Shown here piece by piece: positions 42,641 through 62,600 of a stretch of DNA of 64,000 nt; position 1 is the first letter of the stretch; the number at the start of each line of letters is the position of its first letter. Both the position numbers and the translations under genes were made by a program. Where the stretch lies: assembly GCA_028288445.1 (NCBI GenBank), contig JAQBNT010000242.1, positions 62,001 through 126,000 of the forward strand, written 5' to 3'. Origin of the DNA: Hymenobacter sp. (GTDB lineage: Bacteria > Bacteroidota > Bacteroidia > Cytophagales > Hymenobacteraceae). Under the pieces are notes generated by a model, which did not search any database, was not told where the DNA came from, and saw only the letters and a program-made list of their open reading frames with translations.

Positions 42641-43735
42641 CTATGCTAGTCGATAACTTGTGCTCCGCCCACCCGCCTGCTCTTTAAGCAGAATACCGGA
42701 CTCCAACAAGCTGGCAATATCGCGGCTGGCCGTGTCCTGTGAGCATTTGGCAATGGTTGCCCACTTAGAACTGGTCAGCTTGCCTTCAAATCCGTCGAGC
42801 AATTGGTTCAGCAGCTTCCGTTGGCGTTCATTGAGCGGTTGCCCGGCTAACTGCTCCCAAAAATGCGCTTTGCGCAATACAGCGGCCACGGTGTGCTCAC
42901 TCGCCGTCAGGGCCCGGCCCAGGCATTCGAGAAACCATTCTAACCACGCCGTAATGTCCAGGGAGGCCTGCTGCGTTTTTTCCAAAATAGTATAGTACGC
43001 TTTTCGCTCGCGCAGAATCTGCGCCGACAGGCTGTAAAAGCGCTGAGAGGAGCCATCAGCACGGGCTAGCTGTAAGTCGGTAATAGTCCGCGCTATCCGG
43101 CCGTTACCATCCTCAAATGGATGCAGCGTTACAAACCAGAGGTGGGCCACACCAGCCTTGAGCACGGCATCTAACGCAGGCCCATCGTTGAACCAAGTAA
43201 GGAATTGTTGTACGGCCTCCTCCAAGCCCGCAGCCGCTGGGGCTTGAAAGTGCATTTTTTCGCGGCCTAATGGGCCCGACACGACTTGCATGGGACCGGT
43301 ACGGTCGTCGCGCCAGGCACCTGCCCGTACTTGGTAGAAGCCGCTGCGTCCCCCGGGAAACAAGGCCGATTGCCAGCCGAGCAGCCGTTCTGCCGTGAGT
43401 CGTTGCGCATACCCCTGCACCGCGTCTAGGGCCGTGGTCACCACGCAGTCGATGTGTCGGCTGGCCGGTTCTAGGCCGGCGGTATCCAGCCCCAGTCGCC
43501 GGGCCGCCGAGGAACGTACCTGCACGGGGTCTAACCGTTCGCCTTCTATCTCATGGCTTTTGACCACTTCCTGCGTAAGGGCTTGCACGGCCGCTTCCGT
43601 ACGCACGCCAAAGCCGAGGTGCTGCATCTGCCCCAGCAAACGGCCCTGCTGATGACGTACACTACCAAGCAACGCTTCAAGCCGGTCAGTTTGCCAAGTG
43701 AATCGGGGCCAATCGGGAAGTTCGTAGATGTACAT
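42641..43735 (-). CDS. Fic-family protein with DUF4172-like N terminus and C-terminal winged helix
   Basis: MYIYELPDWPRFTWQTDRLEALL; HPFEDGNGRIAR Fic motif; inhibitory-type SHEIEG; C-terminal TSSKWATIAKCSQDTASRDIASLLESGILLKEQAGGRSTSYRL. Confidence 0.95.
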   Translation of the reverse strand: MYIYELPDWPRFTWQTDRLEALLGSVRHQQGRLLGQMQHLGFGVRTEAAVQALTQEVVKSHEIEGERLDPVQVRSSAARRLGLDTAGLEPASRHIDCVVTTALDAVQGYAQRLTAERLLGWQSALFPGGRSGFYQVRAGAWRDDRTGPMQVVSGPLGREKMHFQAPAAAGLEEAVQQFLTWFNDGPALDAVLKAGVAHLWFVTLHPFEDGNGRIARTITDLQLARADGSSQRFYSLSAQILRERKAYYTILEKTQQASLDITAWLEWFLECLGRALTASEHTVAAVLRKAHFWEQLAGQPLNERQRKLLNQLLDGFEGKLTSSKWATIAKCSQDTASRDIASLLESGILLKEQAGGRSTSYRLA

Positions 43736-43770
43736 AAGGCTCTGCGCAAATAGCAAAGCAAGCTAACAAA

Positions 43771-43904: not shown

Positions 43905-44270
43905 TTATCGCAGGTTTGGCAGTTTCTTTTTCAGCTTTTCTTTCGCCTTTGCAGGTAATTCGCGGTCAGCTTCCGCTTTGCCAGCGAAAAAAGCAGTCAG
44001 CGCTTCCTCCAGAATGTCCTGAATTTCCATTCCTCCCCAGCATTCGAATTGCTTAAGCCGCAAAAAGGTATCGGGAGTAAGTTGGTTAGTAAATGGCACC
44101 TTAGCAACTGCTGCCTCTCTGATGGGCAAAGGCGTAGTAGTTTCATGACTTGGCGTAGCCTTAATGGTCAGGTCATAGAGTAAAGCATCTGCGGCTTGCG
44201 CTGGAACTGACTCAACCTTGGTCATATTTTCTATCATGTTTACCTTGCCTGCCTTTTTCATATTTTTCAT
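43905..44270 (-). CDS. Small ParA-partner protein candidate (ParB-like/centromere-binding)
   Basis: Directly downstream of parA on the same strand; ORF extends to 44414, start assigned at MKNMKKAGKVNMIENM; FLRLKQFECWGGMEIQDILEEALTAFFA. Confidence 0.6.
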   Translation of the reverse strand: MKNMKKAGKVNMIENMTKVESVPAQAADALLYDLTIKATPSHETTTPLPIREAAVAKVPFTNQLTPDTFLRLKQFECWGGMEIQDILEEALTAFFAGKAEADRELPAKAKEKLKKKLPNLR

Positions 44271-44271
44271 A
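44259..44271. promoter_or_regulatory. CATATTTTTCATA site over the start of the ParA-partner gene
   Basis: 13-mer identical to one arm region of the palindrome at 45122-45155. Confidence 0.45.
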
Positions 44272-44295
44272 TTTATAATATGTATGACATTGATA

Positions 44296-45057
44296 CTATC
44301 CGACCGTCTGCCGTATTTCCGCCGTGAGGTTGCGGTAGTCAAGTGCTCCATTAGAATGCGGAGCCCAGGAAAAAATGCTTTGTCGCATGCTTTGCGACTC
44401 TGGTAAAGCGACATTTTCCCGAATAGTTGTCTGCATCACTAAAGGCCCCAGCGTGGGGTCGTCGCGCAACTGCTGTACCACCTGGTGATGCAGTGCCCGC
44501 CGATACGATGGAGCATACTCGGTAAAGAAAATTCCTCCGACCCGGAGTTTAGGATTGAAGTTCTTCTGCAAGCGTGAACACATATCCAGTAGTGCAGTCA
44601 TACCCTCGTTACCGAAGAACTCTGGATGCAATGGCACAAAAACGGCTTCGCTGGCCACCAGTGAAGCCACAGTCAGAGCAGCGAGAGAAGGGGGAGTATC
44701 TATAACTACATAATCAACATTAGTTATCCCTGCCAGTTGGTCTCGCAGAAAGAAGATATAATCAGGCTGCGTACCAAAGACCTTCTCTTGTTGGGCGAGC
44801 GAACGTTCCGCTCTTATGAGCTGCAGTTGCGGTCCGACCCGGTATAGTGCCTGTGGCAGACTTAGCTTTTCCGCGAGCACTTCCCCAATGTGTGGTACGC
44901 TAGCTGGCACCTGGAATGTCTTGCTAGCATTGGCTTGTGGGTCACAATCAAGTAGCACGACTTGAAAGCCCTGTTCGGATAGCGCGTGGGCTACACAAAG
45001 GGCGGAGGTGGTTTTGCCCACTCCACCTTTGTTATTGGCAAAAGAAAGAATATGCAT
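44296..45057 (-). CDS. parA: ParA-family partition ATPase
   Basis: ILSFANNKGGVGKTTSALCVAHALSEQGFQVVLLDCDPQANASKTF deviant Walker A; YVVIDTPPSLAALTVASLVASEAVFVPL. Confidence 0.95.
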   Translation of the reverse strand: MHILSFANNKGGVGKTTSALCVAHALSEQGFQVVLLDCDPQANASKTFQVPASVPHIGEVLAEKLSLPQALYRVGPQLQLIRAERSLAQQEKVFGTQPDYIFFLRDQLAGITNVDYVVIDTPPSLAALTVASLVASEAVFVPLHPEFFGNEGMTALLDMCSRLQKNFNPKLRVGGIFFTEYAPSYRRALHHQVVQQLRDDPTLGPLVMQTTIRENVALPESQSMRQSIFSWAPHSNGALDYRNLTAEIRQTVG

Positions 45058-45121
45058 AAAGCGCTGAATTGTTTAAAGCCAACAAATCTAATCAAGGCAT
45101 CCAATATCGTACGTATTGTAA

Positions 45122-45155
45122 ATACATATTTTTCATAAATATGAAAAATATGTAT
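45122..45155. promoter_or_regulatory. AT-rich perfect palindrome, candidate parS/par operator
   Basis: ATACATATTTTTCAT-AAAT-ATGAAAAATATGTAT, 15-bp perfect arms, upstream of parA. Confidence 0.7.
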
Positions 45156-45229
45156 CGTATTGCTCTGAAAAGCTTGGTATCTAGAATAAAATATTGCTAC
45201 GCTTGAGGTGGTCTAGGGATAGCGGACAG

Positions 45230-45840
45230 AAGAAGGGCGTATATTTCTTCTGTTATAACAGTCAGAAAAAGCGGATTGCTGCCCGACCAACGACGCAAAT
45301 ACGACGAGCTATTTAAGGCCGAGGCTCCTGCGCCTGGGCAGTTGCCGAGCCGCAGCACGCAGGCCGGGGCTTGGCAGTTAGGCATGAGCTCTAAGCTGCT
45401 CTATAGCTGGCAATAGGCCTGTGGCCGAAGTGGGGAGCGTAGAAGTGGCGAGCGACCCAGAGTTACGGGGCCTGCGTGTGGCCAACAAGCAGCTGGCGCA
45501 AGAGTTCGACAGTTAATAAAGCGTTGGCCATCTCCGGCCAATTCGGGGGGTGAGCACCGACCAGTACATCACCCAGTGTCAGGCCCGTGTGTCCGTGCGC
45601 CAGCTTTGCCAGTCCTACAGGTCGCGCATAGTGCGTGCTACGCCTGGCAGCACAGCCAGCCAGCCCCCATTGGTCGAGTCCGCTTGGCAAGTGGCAGTGT
45701 GCGAAGTGTTTGGGCAATACAGCAATCATATCGTTTATTATAACGCCGAACGACGATATTTCGCACTTGGCCACCACTCGCCCAACCAATTCCAAACCCA
45801 CGTTCCAATTCTGTCCGGCTCGGGTAGACCACCTCACCAG
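45230..45840 (+). mobile_element. IS3-family remnant (orfA and start of orfB), multiply interrupted
   Basis: RRKYDELFKAEAPAPGQLPSRSTQAGAWQLGMSSKLLYSWQ, then VAEVGSVEVASDPELRGLRVANKQLAQEFD, then YITQCQARVSVRQLCQ / WQVAVCEVFGQ; stops and frame changes between. Confidence 0.6.
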
Positions 45841-45895
45841 TGACCCTATTTTTGTGGGGGAATGCCTATTCCCCCACAAAAATAGGGTCACTGGT
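45836..45895. repeat. Inverted pair of iterons with perfect 28-bp arms
   Basis: ACCAGTGACCCTATTTTTGTGGGGGAAT-GCCT-ATTCCCCCACAAAAATAGGGTCACTGGT. Confidence 0.95.
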
Positions 45896-45958
45896 TTCCG
45901 AATTGAAAACCCTCTCTACCGACTCTCAGGCGGCTTTTTTCATTGGTAAAAGATAATA

Positions 45959-45978
45959 CCCCCACAAAAATAGGGTCA
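45959..45978 (+). repeat. Iteron CCCCCACAAAAATAGGGTCA
   Basis: Perfect 20-bp copy. Confidence 0.95.
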
Positions 45979-46138
45979 ACGCCCTAGTGTTTTAACTTAC
46001 TGATGCCAGTTTGAGAATTGGTTTTTATAAAACCTTTTCAAAAAACTACTCAAGAACTAGCAGTTTACTTTGTTTATTACTATTATATAGTTTACGGGTG
46101 TCGTAACACTTTGATTCATCTGGTGTTGCAGGCGTATT

Positions 46139-46224
46139 CCCCCACAAAAATAGGGTCACTCCCCCACAAAAATAGGGTCATTCAAGCTTGACTCCCCCAC
46201 AAAAATAGGGTCATTCCCCCACAG
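46139..46224 (+). repeat. Iteron cluster upstream of rep: three perfect 20-mers and one partial
   Basis: CCCCCACAAAAATAGGGTCA at 46139-46158, 46161-46180, 46194-46213; partial CCCCCACAG at 46216-46224. Confidence 0.95.
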
Positions 46225-46290
46225 GAATTAAAACGTGTGGGAAAATGCGGGATAATTGAATATATTTGTCTGGTCCTAAATCCTTCTGCC

Positions 46291-47460
46291 ATGGAGTCAA
46301 CTTCTGTCACAGCTCTGCCGCTAGTCGTACAGCATAATGCGCTGGTGAACGCACGCTTTAACATGTCAGCGTTGGAAATGCGGTTTTTTTTAGCGCTACT
46401 AAGCCGGATTGGTAGGGATGATGACAGCTTTACGGTGTGTGAGGTGCCTGTTCGAGAGATATGCTCAAGCAGTGCCAGTAATGCCATTTATAATGAGGTT
46501 CGGGAGATGGTGCGGAGCATTGGTACGCGAGCACTGTTTATTGAGGCTTTAAGCCCGGAAGGCAAGCGGGTCAAAGACCCAGATGTGCTGACATTGCCAT
46601 TGATGGGTCGTGCTCACTACCGCCGCAAGACGGGAGTAGTGGAGGCTAGTTTCAATGAAAATATTCGGCCTTACCTATTGGAACTGCGCGACAATTTTAC
46701 CAAAGCCCAGCTGAGCCAGCTATTAAAACTAAAGAGCCCTGTCTCTCATCGAATATACTGGTTGCTAAGGGAGTATGCAGCCTTTGGTAAACGCGTAATT
46801 GGATTGGCTGAATTACGCAATGTCCTGGGACTGACAACTGAATACCAAAATCGGTTCGACCACTTTCGTGACCGTGTACTGGACCGGGCACAAACTGAAC
46901 TGGCACAAACGGATTTGCCATTTACTTATGAAGTCATAAAGCAGGGCAGAGTAATTACCGAAATTCGCTTTCTGTTTGAGCCTGCTGGAGGCACTTCTAT
47001 TGACTCAGTGAAGTTTGAACCCACCGGTTGGGAAACTGCCCTATTGGCTGCTGGAGTAGGAGAGAAGAGCCTTCCTGTAATTCGCTTACAATTGGAAAGC
47101 GGAGTGTATGAGGAGCAGTATATCTATTTTGTGTTGCAGACTATACGGGCAAAAGTTCTTCAAGGGAAGGTGAAGAAGGAGGGAGGTGCCGTTTTTAAAG
47201 CTTTAACTGAAGGGTATCTGCTAAACGATTTCCGCAAGCAGGTTGCCAATATTCAGGTTAAACAGCAGAAAATTGGTAAAAGAAGTGGGGATAGTGCAAG
47301 TGTACGGATTCGTTTAGAGGATGCCGAGGCTGCGTATGAAACCATGCGGAAAAAGGGTAAAGCACCAAGCACGTTTGCTGAAAACCTAGAGCAAACATAT
47401 CTAAATCAAGGGTTTATGATAGTGCAAAATGAAACCGGCAACTGGTTAATTAAAGATTAG
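46291..47460 (+). CDS. Rep_3-superfamily-like plasmid replication initiator
   Basis: LPLVVQHNALVNARFNMSALEMRFFLALLSRIGRDDD; KSPVSHRIYWLLREYAAFGKRVIGLAELRNVLGL; directly downstream of iterons. Confidence 0.9.
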   Translation: MESTSVTALPLVVQHNALVNARFNMSALEMRFFLALLSRIGRDDDSFTVCEVPVREICSSSASNAIYNEVREMVRSIGTRALFIEALSPEGKRVKDPDVLTLPLMGRAHYRRKTGVVEASFNENIRPYLLELRDNFTKAQLSQLLKLKSPVSHRIYWLLREYAAFGKRVIGLAELRNVLGLTTEYQNRFDHFRDRVLDRAQTELAQTDLPFTYEVIKQGRVITEIRFLFEPAGGTSIDSVKFEPTGWETALLAAGVGEKSLPVIRLQLESGVYEEQYIYFVLQTIRAKVLQGKVKKEGGAVFKALTEGYLLNDFRKQVANIQVKQQKIGKRSGDSASVRIRLEDAEAAYETMRKKGKAPSTFAENLEQTYLNQGFMIVQNETGNWLIKD

Positions 47461-59671: not shown

Positions 59672-62600
59672 TTAGAAATTGGCGTTGAGCCCTACGGTAT
59701 AGATGCGCGAAGTGGGGTATACCCCGAAGTCGCGGCCCAGGCTGGTGGAGGAGAAGGGGTCGGCGCTGACCTCCGGGTCGTAGCCGAGGTAATTCGTCCA
59801 GGTCACTAGGTTCTGGCCCGTCACGTACAGGCGCAAGGTCTTGATGGCCGCGTGTTTGGAGAAGCTGGCGGGCACGTTGTAGGCCAGCGTCAGGTTCTTG
59901 AGGCGCACGTAGGAGCCGTCCTCGATGAAGCGGGTCGAGAGGCGGTTGTTGCCGTTCGGGTCGCTGCGCACGGGGCGCGGAATGTCGGTATCGGTGTTGG
60001 TAGGCGTCCAGTGGTTCAGCACGCGGGTGCTTTGGTTCAGCGGGTCGGTCTGGCCTTCGGTCACGGTGCGGGTTTGGTTGTAGATGTCGTTGCCGAAGCT
60101 GCCCTGGAAGAACACGCTCAGCTCAAGCCCTTTGTAAGCGAAGGAGTTGGTGACACCCGCAAACACCCTGGGGTTGGGGTTGCCGATGATGGTGCGGTCG
60201 CTGGCGTTGATGACGCCGTCGCCGTTCAGGTCCTTGAATTTGATGTCGCCGGGAGCCGTTTTGGTGTTCTGGTAGATGCCCGTGGAAGAGCCTTTGTTCA
60301 GGGCCGCCAGCTGGTCGGCGGTTTGAATGATGCCATCGGCCACGTAACCGTAGAACACGCCGAGCGGCGTGCCGGGCTGCAGGATGGTGTTGCCCTGGAG
60401 GATGGTGCGCGGCACCTGCACGCCAGCGTCGTTGGCCTGCGTGCCCAGGTCCAGCACCTTGTTGCGGTTGCCCGAGATGTTGAAGTTGGTGGTCCAGGCG
60501 AAAGCGCCGTTCTGGCCGTCCACGTTGTTCGTCACCAGGCCCAGCTCGATGCCCCGGTTCTGAATCGTGCCAATGTTTTGGAGGATGGTCAGGTTCTGCG
60601 CGCCCGAGCTCTGCGGGATGGGCACGCTGTTGAGCAAGTCCTTGGTTTGCTTGTCGTAGATGTCGAAGGTGAAGGTGAGGCGGTTGTTGAACATGCCCAA
60701 ATCGATGCCCCCGTTGTACTGGTACGTGGTTTCCCACTTCACCTCGTTGCCGATGTCGCTTTGCGAAATCCCGCCCACGATGGTGCCGCCCGTGCCCTGG
60801 TAATTGTAGCCCAGGCCGTAGCGCGAGTAGCGCTGGTAGGTGTAAAACTCCGAGTTGCCGTTGGCCCCGAAGCTGGCGCGCAGCTTCAAATCCGAAATAG
60901 CCTTGGTTTGCGGGAAGAACGATTCTTTCGACACGCGCCAGCCCAGCGCCACGGCCGGAAAGTAGCCAAAGCGGTTGGCCGCGCTGAACTTGCTGCTGGC
61001 ATCGGCCCGGAAGCTCACCGTGGCCAGGTAGCGCTCATCGTAGTTGTAAATGGCACGGCTGAACAGGCTGAACAGCGCCCATTGGTCGGCGTAGCTGCCC
61101 GGAATACCGTCTGCGATGGACCCGCCGCTGAGGTAGGGCACGGCGTTGGAGGCGAAGCTCTTGGTGCCCGCGCCCGAAGTGAAGCGGTCGGACGCCTGCA
61201 TCGACTGGCCGGCCAGCACCGTGAGGTGGTGCTTGTCGCCGAGGGTGGGGTTGTAGGTCAGCGTGTTTTCCAGCAGCCAGATGGTCTGCTGGTTGGTAGC
61301 CGTGCGGGCCGAGCCGCGCAGCGAGGGGTCCACGCCGGGCAGGGCCAACGGCGGGTAGTTGCGGCTGATGAACGTATTCTCGGTCTGGTAGCGCAGGTCG
61401 AGGGCCGCCGAGGAGCGCAGCGTCAGGTTCTTGAGGATGTCCAGCTCGCCGAAGATGTTGCCGATGGTCTGGTACACCACGGCCTTGTTGCTGCTTTCCT
61501 GCAGGTTACCAATCGGGTTGTCGAAGTTCGAGGCGAAGGTATTCACGCTGTACATGCCCAGCGCATTCAGCACCGGAATGGTCGGAATCTGGGTCAGGGC
61601 GGCTATCACCGTGCCCGAACTGCCCGCGCCCAGCTCCGAACGCACGCTGCCGTTGGTGAAGCTGCGGCTCATGTTCAGGTTCGTGCCCAGCCGGAACCGG
61701 TTGCTGATGTGTTGGTCCAGGTTCAGCTTGAAATTGTAGCGGTCGAAGCCCGAATTGATGTTGATGCCGTCCTGCTTGAAGTAGCCTCCGGCCAGGTAGT
61801 AGCGGGTTTTTTCCGTGCCGCCGCTCACATTGAGCTGGTAGCTCTGGATGTCGGCCGGGCGGTACACTTCATCCTGCCAGTCGGTGTTATAAGGCGGCAG
61901 GTTGTTGAGGTCGGCGAAGCCGGGGGCCTGGCCGGCATTGGCCAGCACCTCGTTATACTCCTTCGCAAACTGCGCCGAGTTGAGCACGTCCAGCTTTTTG
62001 CGCAGCTTCTGGCGGCCGTAGTACACGCTCAGGCCCACCTGCGCCTGGCCCACTTTGCCCTTCTTGGTCGTAACCACCACCACGCCGTTGGCGGCGCGTA
62101 CGCCATAAATGGCCGCGCCCGCGCCGTCCTTCAGCACGTCAATGCTCTCAATGTCGCTGGGGTTGATGGTGTTGAGCGGGTTCAGGCGCTGGTTGCCCAC
62201 CTTTAGCTCCTGGCTGCCTTCGTAATCGGGCAGTACCGGCACGCCGTCAATCACATACAGCGGCGAGCCGTTCAGGCTTACTGAGGCGTTGCCCCGTATC
62301 CGCACGTTGATGCCCGCGCCGGGTGCACCCGATGGGGCCGTTACCTGCACGCCGGGCGCCTGGCCCTGCAGCGCTTGGTCGAAGCCCGCCACCGGCTGGC
62401 GTGCCAGCGCCGCGCCGCTTACTGACGCTACCGACGTAGTCAACTCCTGGCGGGTTTGGGTGCCGTAGCCCACCACCACGACTTCTTTCAGCGCCTGCGT
62501 ATCGTCTTTCAGCTGGATGCTGAACGTGGTGGTAGTGCCCACCGGCACCTCCTGCCGGACGAAGCCAACGGAGGTGAATACCAACGTGCTGCCTTCCGGG

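Follow-up and report, generated by a model that had tools for sequence, protein, structure and literature searches.

The origin of plasmid RK2, oriV, combines a main direct array of iterons with outlying upstream iterons, some of them inverted, and this is also the arrangement of the locus described here; RK2 differs from it in that TrfA is encoded away from oriV and in that DnaA boxes are present. In the case of the F plasmid, RepE initiates replication as a monomer and, as a dimer, binds inverted repeats in the repE operator; the incC iterons stand apart from the origin and are believed to reduce the copy number by looping to it (PMC13028717).

We analysed a stretch of 64,000 nucleotides from a Hymenobacter sp. 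contig (the window) and put the probability at about 0.88 that its region 45836-47460 represents the basic replicon of an iteron plasmid of the Rep_3 type, or a plasmid-derived part of a larger replicon, that works along the lines proposed below. The Rep_3 iteron origin at this position is genuine, well-formed and of a kind already known, and the original prediction of helically phased iterons upstream of a Rep_3-type initiator is borne out. The undescribed parts appear to be a layout that extends over the genus and a near absence of consensus DnaA boxes; a limited literature search returned no description of Hymenobacter plasmid origins.

Iterons, initiator and promoter region

A scan of the whole window recovered six perfect copies of the 20-mer iteron CCCCCACAAAAATAGGGTCA, all at this locus and exactly where they had been predicted, one on the minus and five on the plus strand (Table 1). 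No further match was found in the window with up to three mismatches allowed (expectation from shuffled sequence 0.00), nor was there any beyond these six in the 5.49-Mb genome with up to two mismatches. The predicted array spacings of 22, 33 and 22 bp were likewise recovered, where the last step runs from the third full copy to a partial iteron that starts at 46216 (ATTCCCCCACAGGAAT, 46213-46228). Several of the features by which an iteron origin is recognised are present, i.e. at least three direct repeats of about 17-22 bp that are in helical phase and adjoin rep, an inverted repeat of half-iterons at the rep promoter and, judged on sequence, an unwinding region, namely a block that is 72% AT over the 100-bp stretch scored and that is the probable DNA unwinding element.

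Table 1. Positions of the features at and next to the proposed replicon (window coordinates).
Feature	Position	Strand	Basis or remark
Putative small ParB-like partner directly after parA	43905..44237	(-)	Position only; no family match
parA, plasmid-type partition ATPase	44296..45057	(-)	AAA_31, E=1.2e-37
Possible centromere/parS, an AT-rich palindrome 5' of parA	45122..45155		Self-complementary match
Degenerate IS3-family element, ~633 bp of a ~1.25-kb element, ends TGAGGTGGTCTA / TAGACCACCTCA	45204..45836		Alignment
Inverted repeat with 28-bp arms and 4-nt spacer (head-to-head iterons and flanks)	45836..45895		Sequence and folding
Inverted upstream iteron	45841..45860	(-)	At least one inverted upstream iteron in 32/33 loci
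Direct iteron opposite the inverted copy	45871..45890	(+)	Close pair limited to window, L015 and L016
Lone direct iteron, 180 bp 5' of the array	45959..45978	(+)	Counterpart at 174-214 bp in 29/33 loci
AT-rich block, AGTTTAC at 46062 and 46089, candidate DNA unwinding element	46035..46125		Genus conservation
Origin array: three full iterons at 46139, 46161 and 46194 (steps 22 and 33 bp)	46139..46213	(+)	
Half-iteron dyad TTCCCCCAC-N12-GTGTGGGAA, putative rep autoregulatory operator	46214..46243		9-nt arms, 1 mismatch
-7 box TATATTTG	46261..46268	(+)	Fits TAnnTTTG; 22 bp before rep start codon
rep, Rep_3-type initiator, 389 aa, WH1 + WH2 + ~160-aa C-terminal extension	46291..47460	(+)	Pfam

The assignment of the adjoining gene as Rep_3-like is confirmed by Pfam, as both winged-helix domains score above cut-off: Rep3_N (PF01051, WH1) with E=6.2e-29 and 101.6 bits (cut-off 22.4), and Rep3_C (PF21205, WH2) with E=1.2e-13 and 51.6 bits (cut-off 21.1). 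The protein also resembles RepE of the F plasmid (1rep/2z9o) with an E-value of about 1e-8. Its C-terminal ~160 residues (46963-47457) have no Pfam match; those homologues with a full-length alignment have this region as well. An AlphaFold model based on three close sequences has a mean pLDDT of 47 and is unreliable in the winged-helix part. The nearest relatives, which are 88% identical, are found in H. jeongseonensis and H. siberiensis (loci L015 and L016), and the Rep of two Hymenobacter plasmids (BRD128 and BRD67) is 59% identical over 87%.

Bacteroidota promoters have the -7 consensus TAnnTTTG, and a box of this form precedes rep. Half-iteron dyads similar to the one listed in Table 1 occupy the same place at the promoter in most relatives. 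Neither TTWTNCACA nor a one-mismatch form of TTATCCACA was found in the 1-kb origin region of the window; the DnaA box of Hymenobacter itself may differ from these.

Origin layout among Hymenobacter Rep loci

A Rep match was present in 104 of the 120 Hymenobacter genomes searched (own genome counted) and in 65 Hymenobacter plasmid records. Iterons were scanned de novo upstream of related Rep loci, and 33 non-redundant loci, the window included, were tabulated. In this layout the inverted iteron or iterons come first, followed by a lone direct copy, an AT-rich block that contains AGTTTAC motifs, an array with steps of 22/22/22/33 bp and, at the rep promoter, a dyad of half-iterons. The order is kept while the iteron sequences themselves diverge (e.g. 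ACTACAAAAAAGGGG, CTATTACAAAAAGCACG and CGACTACACTTTTGGTG). Inverted upstream iterons occur in 32 of the 33 loci, and shuffled upstream regions yielded no inverted iteron matches; the lone direct iteron lies 174-214 bp before the array in 29, an array of at least three copies with steps of 21-23 bp is found in 31, and a 33-bp step within the array in 30. In 30/33 loci the AGTTTAC motif follows the lone iteron and precedes the array frame by 43-58 bp. A match to the DnaA-box consensus TTWTNCACA, from which Hymenobacter itself may deviate, is near the origin in only one of the 33; this scarcity counts only against an assignment to the DnaA-dependent type of iteron origin.

The AGTTTAC block is absent from four outgroup loci in other Cytophagales genera and the layout differs there as well. 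These include two Spirosoma plasmids with arrays of 20-22-bp iterons and a Bernardetia locus with 21-22-bp repeats. The Spirosoma oryzicola plasmid (L060) carries an unusually long family, with 17 iterons, mostly in 20-22-bp steps, between 580 and 1223 on the 5' side of rep.

The genome that contains the window has two more Rep_3 genes with different iterons, on contigs C46 (L057) and C289 (L058), and upstream inverted iterons were observed at both. The C289 iteron and that of the window have CCCCCACAAAAA in common but differ in their 3' halves. Divergence of Rep and divergence of the iterons were compared with the C289 iteron out of frame, and the Mantel correlations, which are confounded by shared ancestry, were 0.65 for WH1, 0.63 for WH2 and 0.46 for the C-terminus. 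Residues 176 and 191 of WH2 follow the class of the iteron 5' half-site, a correlation that is confounded in the same way.

Taken further, the Hymenobacter Rep_3 plasmids might form a distinct class of origins, with few consensus DnaA boxes, an unwinding block with AGTTTAC that is specific to the genus, outlying inverted iterons that are nearly obligatory and limit the number of copies by looping, and a spacing that stays fixed while the iterons diverge such that co-resident plasmids are compatible; we put this forward tentatively and hold it to be somewhat less than an even bet. Hymenobacter strains often carry multiple plasmids, and on a conserved plan incompatibility groups would be predictable from the iteron sequence. 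In addition, the 30 or more origins offer a natural series for relating the spacing of inverted control iterons to copy number, and the locus in the window could serve as a minimal replicon in the construction of genetic tools for the Cytophagales.

Proposed function and state of the replicon

From the sequence and positions of the elements, the family of Rep and the conservation of the layout we infer a working scheme of binding, melting, repression and pairing. Rep monomers would bind the phased direct iterons of the array and melt the AT-rich block, where the helicase would be loaded, and Rep dimers would bind the half-iteron dyad and repress the rep promoter. The outlying iterons (45841, 45871 and 45959) would hold additional Rep and pair with the origin array, either in cis by forming a loop or in trans by handcuffing, so that the copy number would be limited.

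The head-to-head pair would, in this scheme, be a lineage-specific arrangement of copy-control sites. The original prediction of perfect 28-bp arms around a 4-nt spacer was recovered exactly (45836-45863 and 45868-45895, 100% complementary). A tight pair of this kind is found in only three of the 33 loci, namely the window, L015 (22-bp arms) and L016 (21 bp, 95%), whereas an inverted upstream iteron is found in 32, and therefore the pair is not the conserved element; we read it as a lineage-specific form of a more general feature, i.e. outlying inverted control iterons. A role of the 28-bp repeat in copy control by handcuffing or looping is plausible.

Comparison with the F plasmid makes the dyad the better candidate for the operator and the outlying iterons the better candidates for copy control, and the rep operator is most likely the half-iteron dyad. 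The earlier idea that the 28-bp repeat is itself the rep operator was dropped in favour of the dyad, which fits better. Together with its variant, in which the repeat is a cruciform element needed for initiation, we consider it very unlikely: the perfect arms and the strong predicted hairpin (-34.2 kcal/mol for the single strand, z = -13.9 versus shuffles) speak for such a role, but the repeat lies ~400 bp away from rep, the dyad is proximal to the rep promoter, and the pair is missing from 30 of the 33 related origins and is shorter in the closest two. Even more improbable is a partition or resolution site instead of replication control. Partition genes do adjoin the pair, and in L016 the parA-parB genes end ~10 bp before it; the repeat unit is, however, the iteron of the neighbouring rep and is not common to the par module, which has an AT-rich palindrome of its own.

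The left border of the pair seems to have been rearranged. Homology of the window to L015 and L016 fades at the inverted iteron, and position 45836 is both the outermost base of the left arm and about the last base of the IS3 remnant, which was delimited by alignment with copies from other genomes, matches rve_2 weakly (E=5e-4) and shows no visible target duplication. In L016, parA and a 115-aa partner immediately precede the inverted iteron and have the orientation of rep, whereas the parA module of the window (43905-45200) faces away from rep and has its best DNA matches (76-79%) next to Rep genes of another subfamily, in G115 and G065. The oppositely oriented module and the IS3 remnant abutting the inverted iteron suggest a swap of the partition module, with its breakpoint at the inverted iteron, as the simplest reading. 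A second partial IS3-family copy was seen just left of the window (contig 61613-61966), and a Fic/DOC protein with DUF4172 is encoded next to the parA module (42641-43756).

The Rep_3 iteron origin supports the plasmid ancestry that had been claimed for this DNA, and in our judgement the replicon is probably a plasmid rather than an integrated one. The contig (136,008 bp) is open, as its ends are SusC paralogues that are only 93% identical and do not constitute an overlap; the genes sampled on it are for polysaccharide utilisation and accessory enzymes, and no tRNA or Rfam RNA was found on it, which is uninformative for the type of contig. A chromosomally integrated relic, with iterons that have lost their use as an origin, is rather unlikely, although several observations point in that direction: large contigs of relatives run collinear with the right flank (50.4-64 kb), among them the 778-kb contig C5 of G008 and C1 of G105, a related Rep with full iterons is located in G075, 4.68 Mb into a 4.87-Mb contig, the array is shortened and there is an IS remnant at the border of the inverted repeat. 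Against a relic, Rep, dyad, iterons and AT-rich block are intact, with no difference among the six iteron copies, a plasmid of H. volaticus (330 kb) carries the same PUL block, a 246-kb contig that holds part of the left flank also bears a Rep homologue, only one of the Rep matches listed lies beyond 400 kb in its contig, and the Rep family is common on Hymenobacter plasmids. The chromosomal neighbours of the G008 PUL block have partial matches on several contigs of the window's own genome, the best long ones at 67-72%. Since the G075 Rep and iterons lie inside a 4.87-Mb contig, integration of such replicons probably does occur; that locus (L055, contig C1), with its Rep homologue and complete iteron set, is a probable integrated plasmid. 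For the replicon in the window, the array is 44 bp shorter than in L015 and L016, which corresponds to two iterons fewer (three versus five copies), and its function as an origin could be weakened.

Comparison with known systems

The scarcity of consensus DnaA boxes sets the 33 Hymenobacter loci apart from the classical, DnaA-dependent iteron plasmids. With oriS/incC of the F plasmid the window shares the Rep_3 initiator, direct iterons beside an AT-rich region and, on our reading, an inverted-repeat operator and separate control iterons; it differs by the extra C-terminal region of Rep and by the consensus DnaA box, which was not found. Moreover, the control iterons of F are downstream of repE (PMC13028717), whereas those of the window are upstream and include inverted copies.

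Closer to the window are the plasmids unnamed3 of BRD128 (NZ_CP053911) and unnamed3 of BRD67 (NZ_CP053907), with iterons CCCCCACA[A/G]AAATGGGGT, which equally have a lone direct iteron that precedes the array by 181 bp, upstream inverted iterons and a half-iteron dyad, but which lack the tight head-to-head pair, have a five-copy array and carry a convergent parAB downstream of rep. The loci of H. jeongseonensis BT683 (L015) and H. siberiensis PAMC 29290 (L016) differ from the window by their five-copy array and shorter inverted-repeat arms and, in the case of the latter, by a different parAB; they have the same iteron, the head-to-head pair and a closely similar Rep in common with it.
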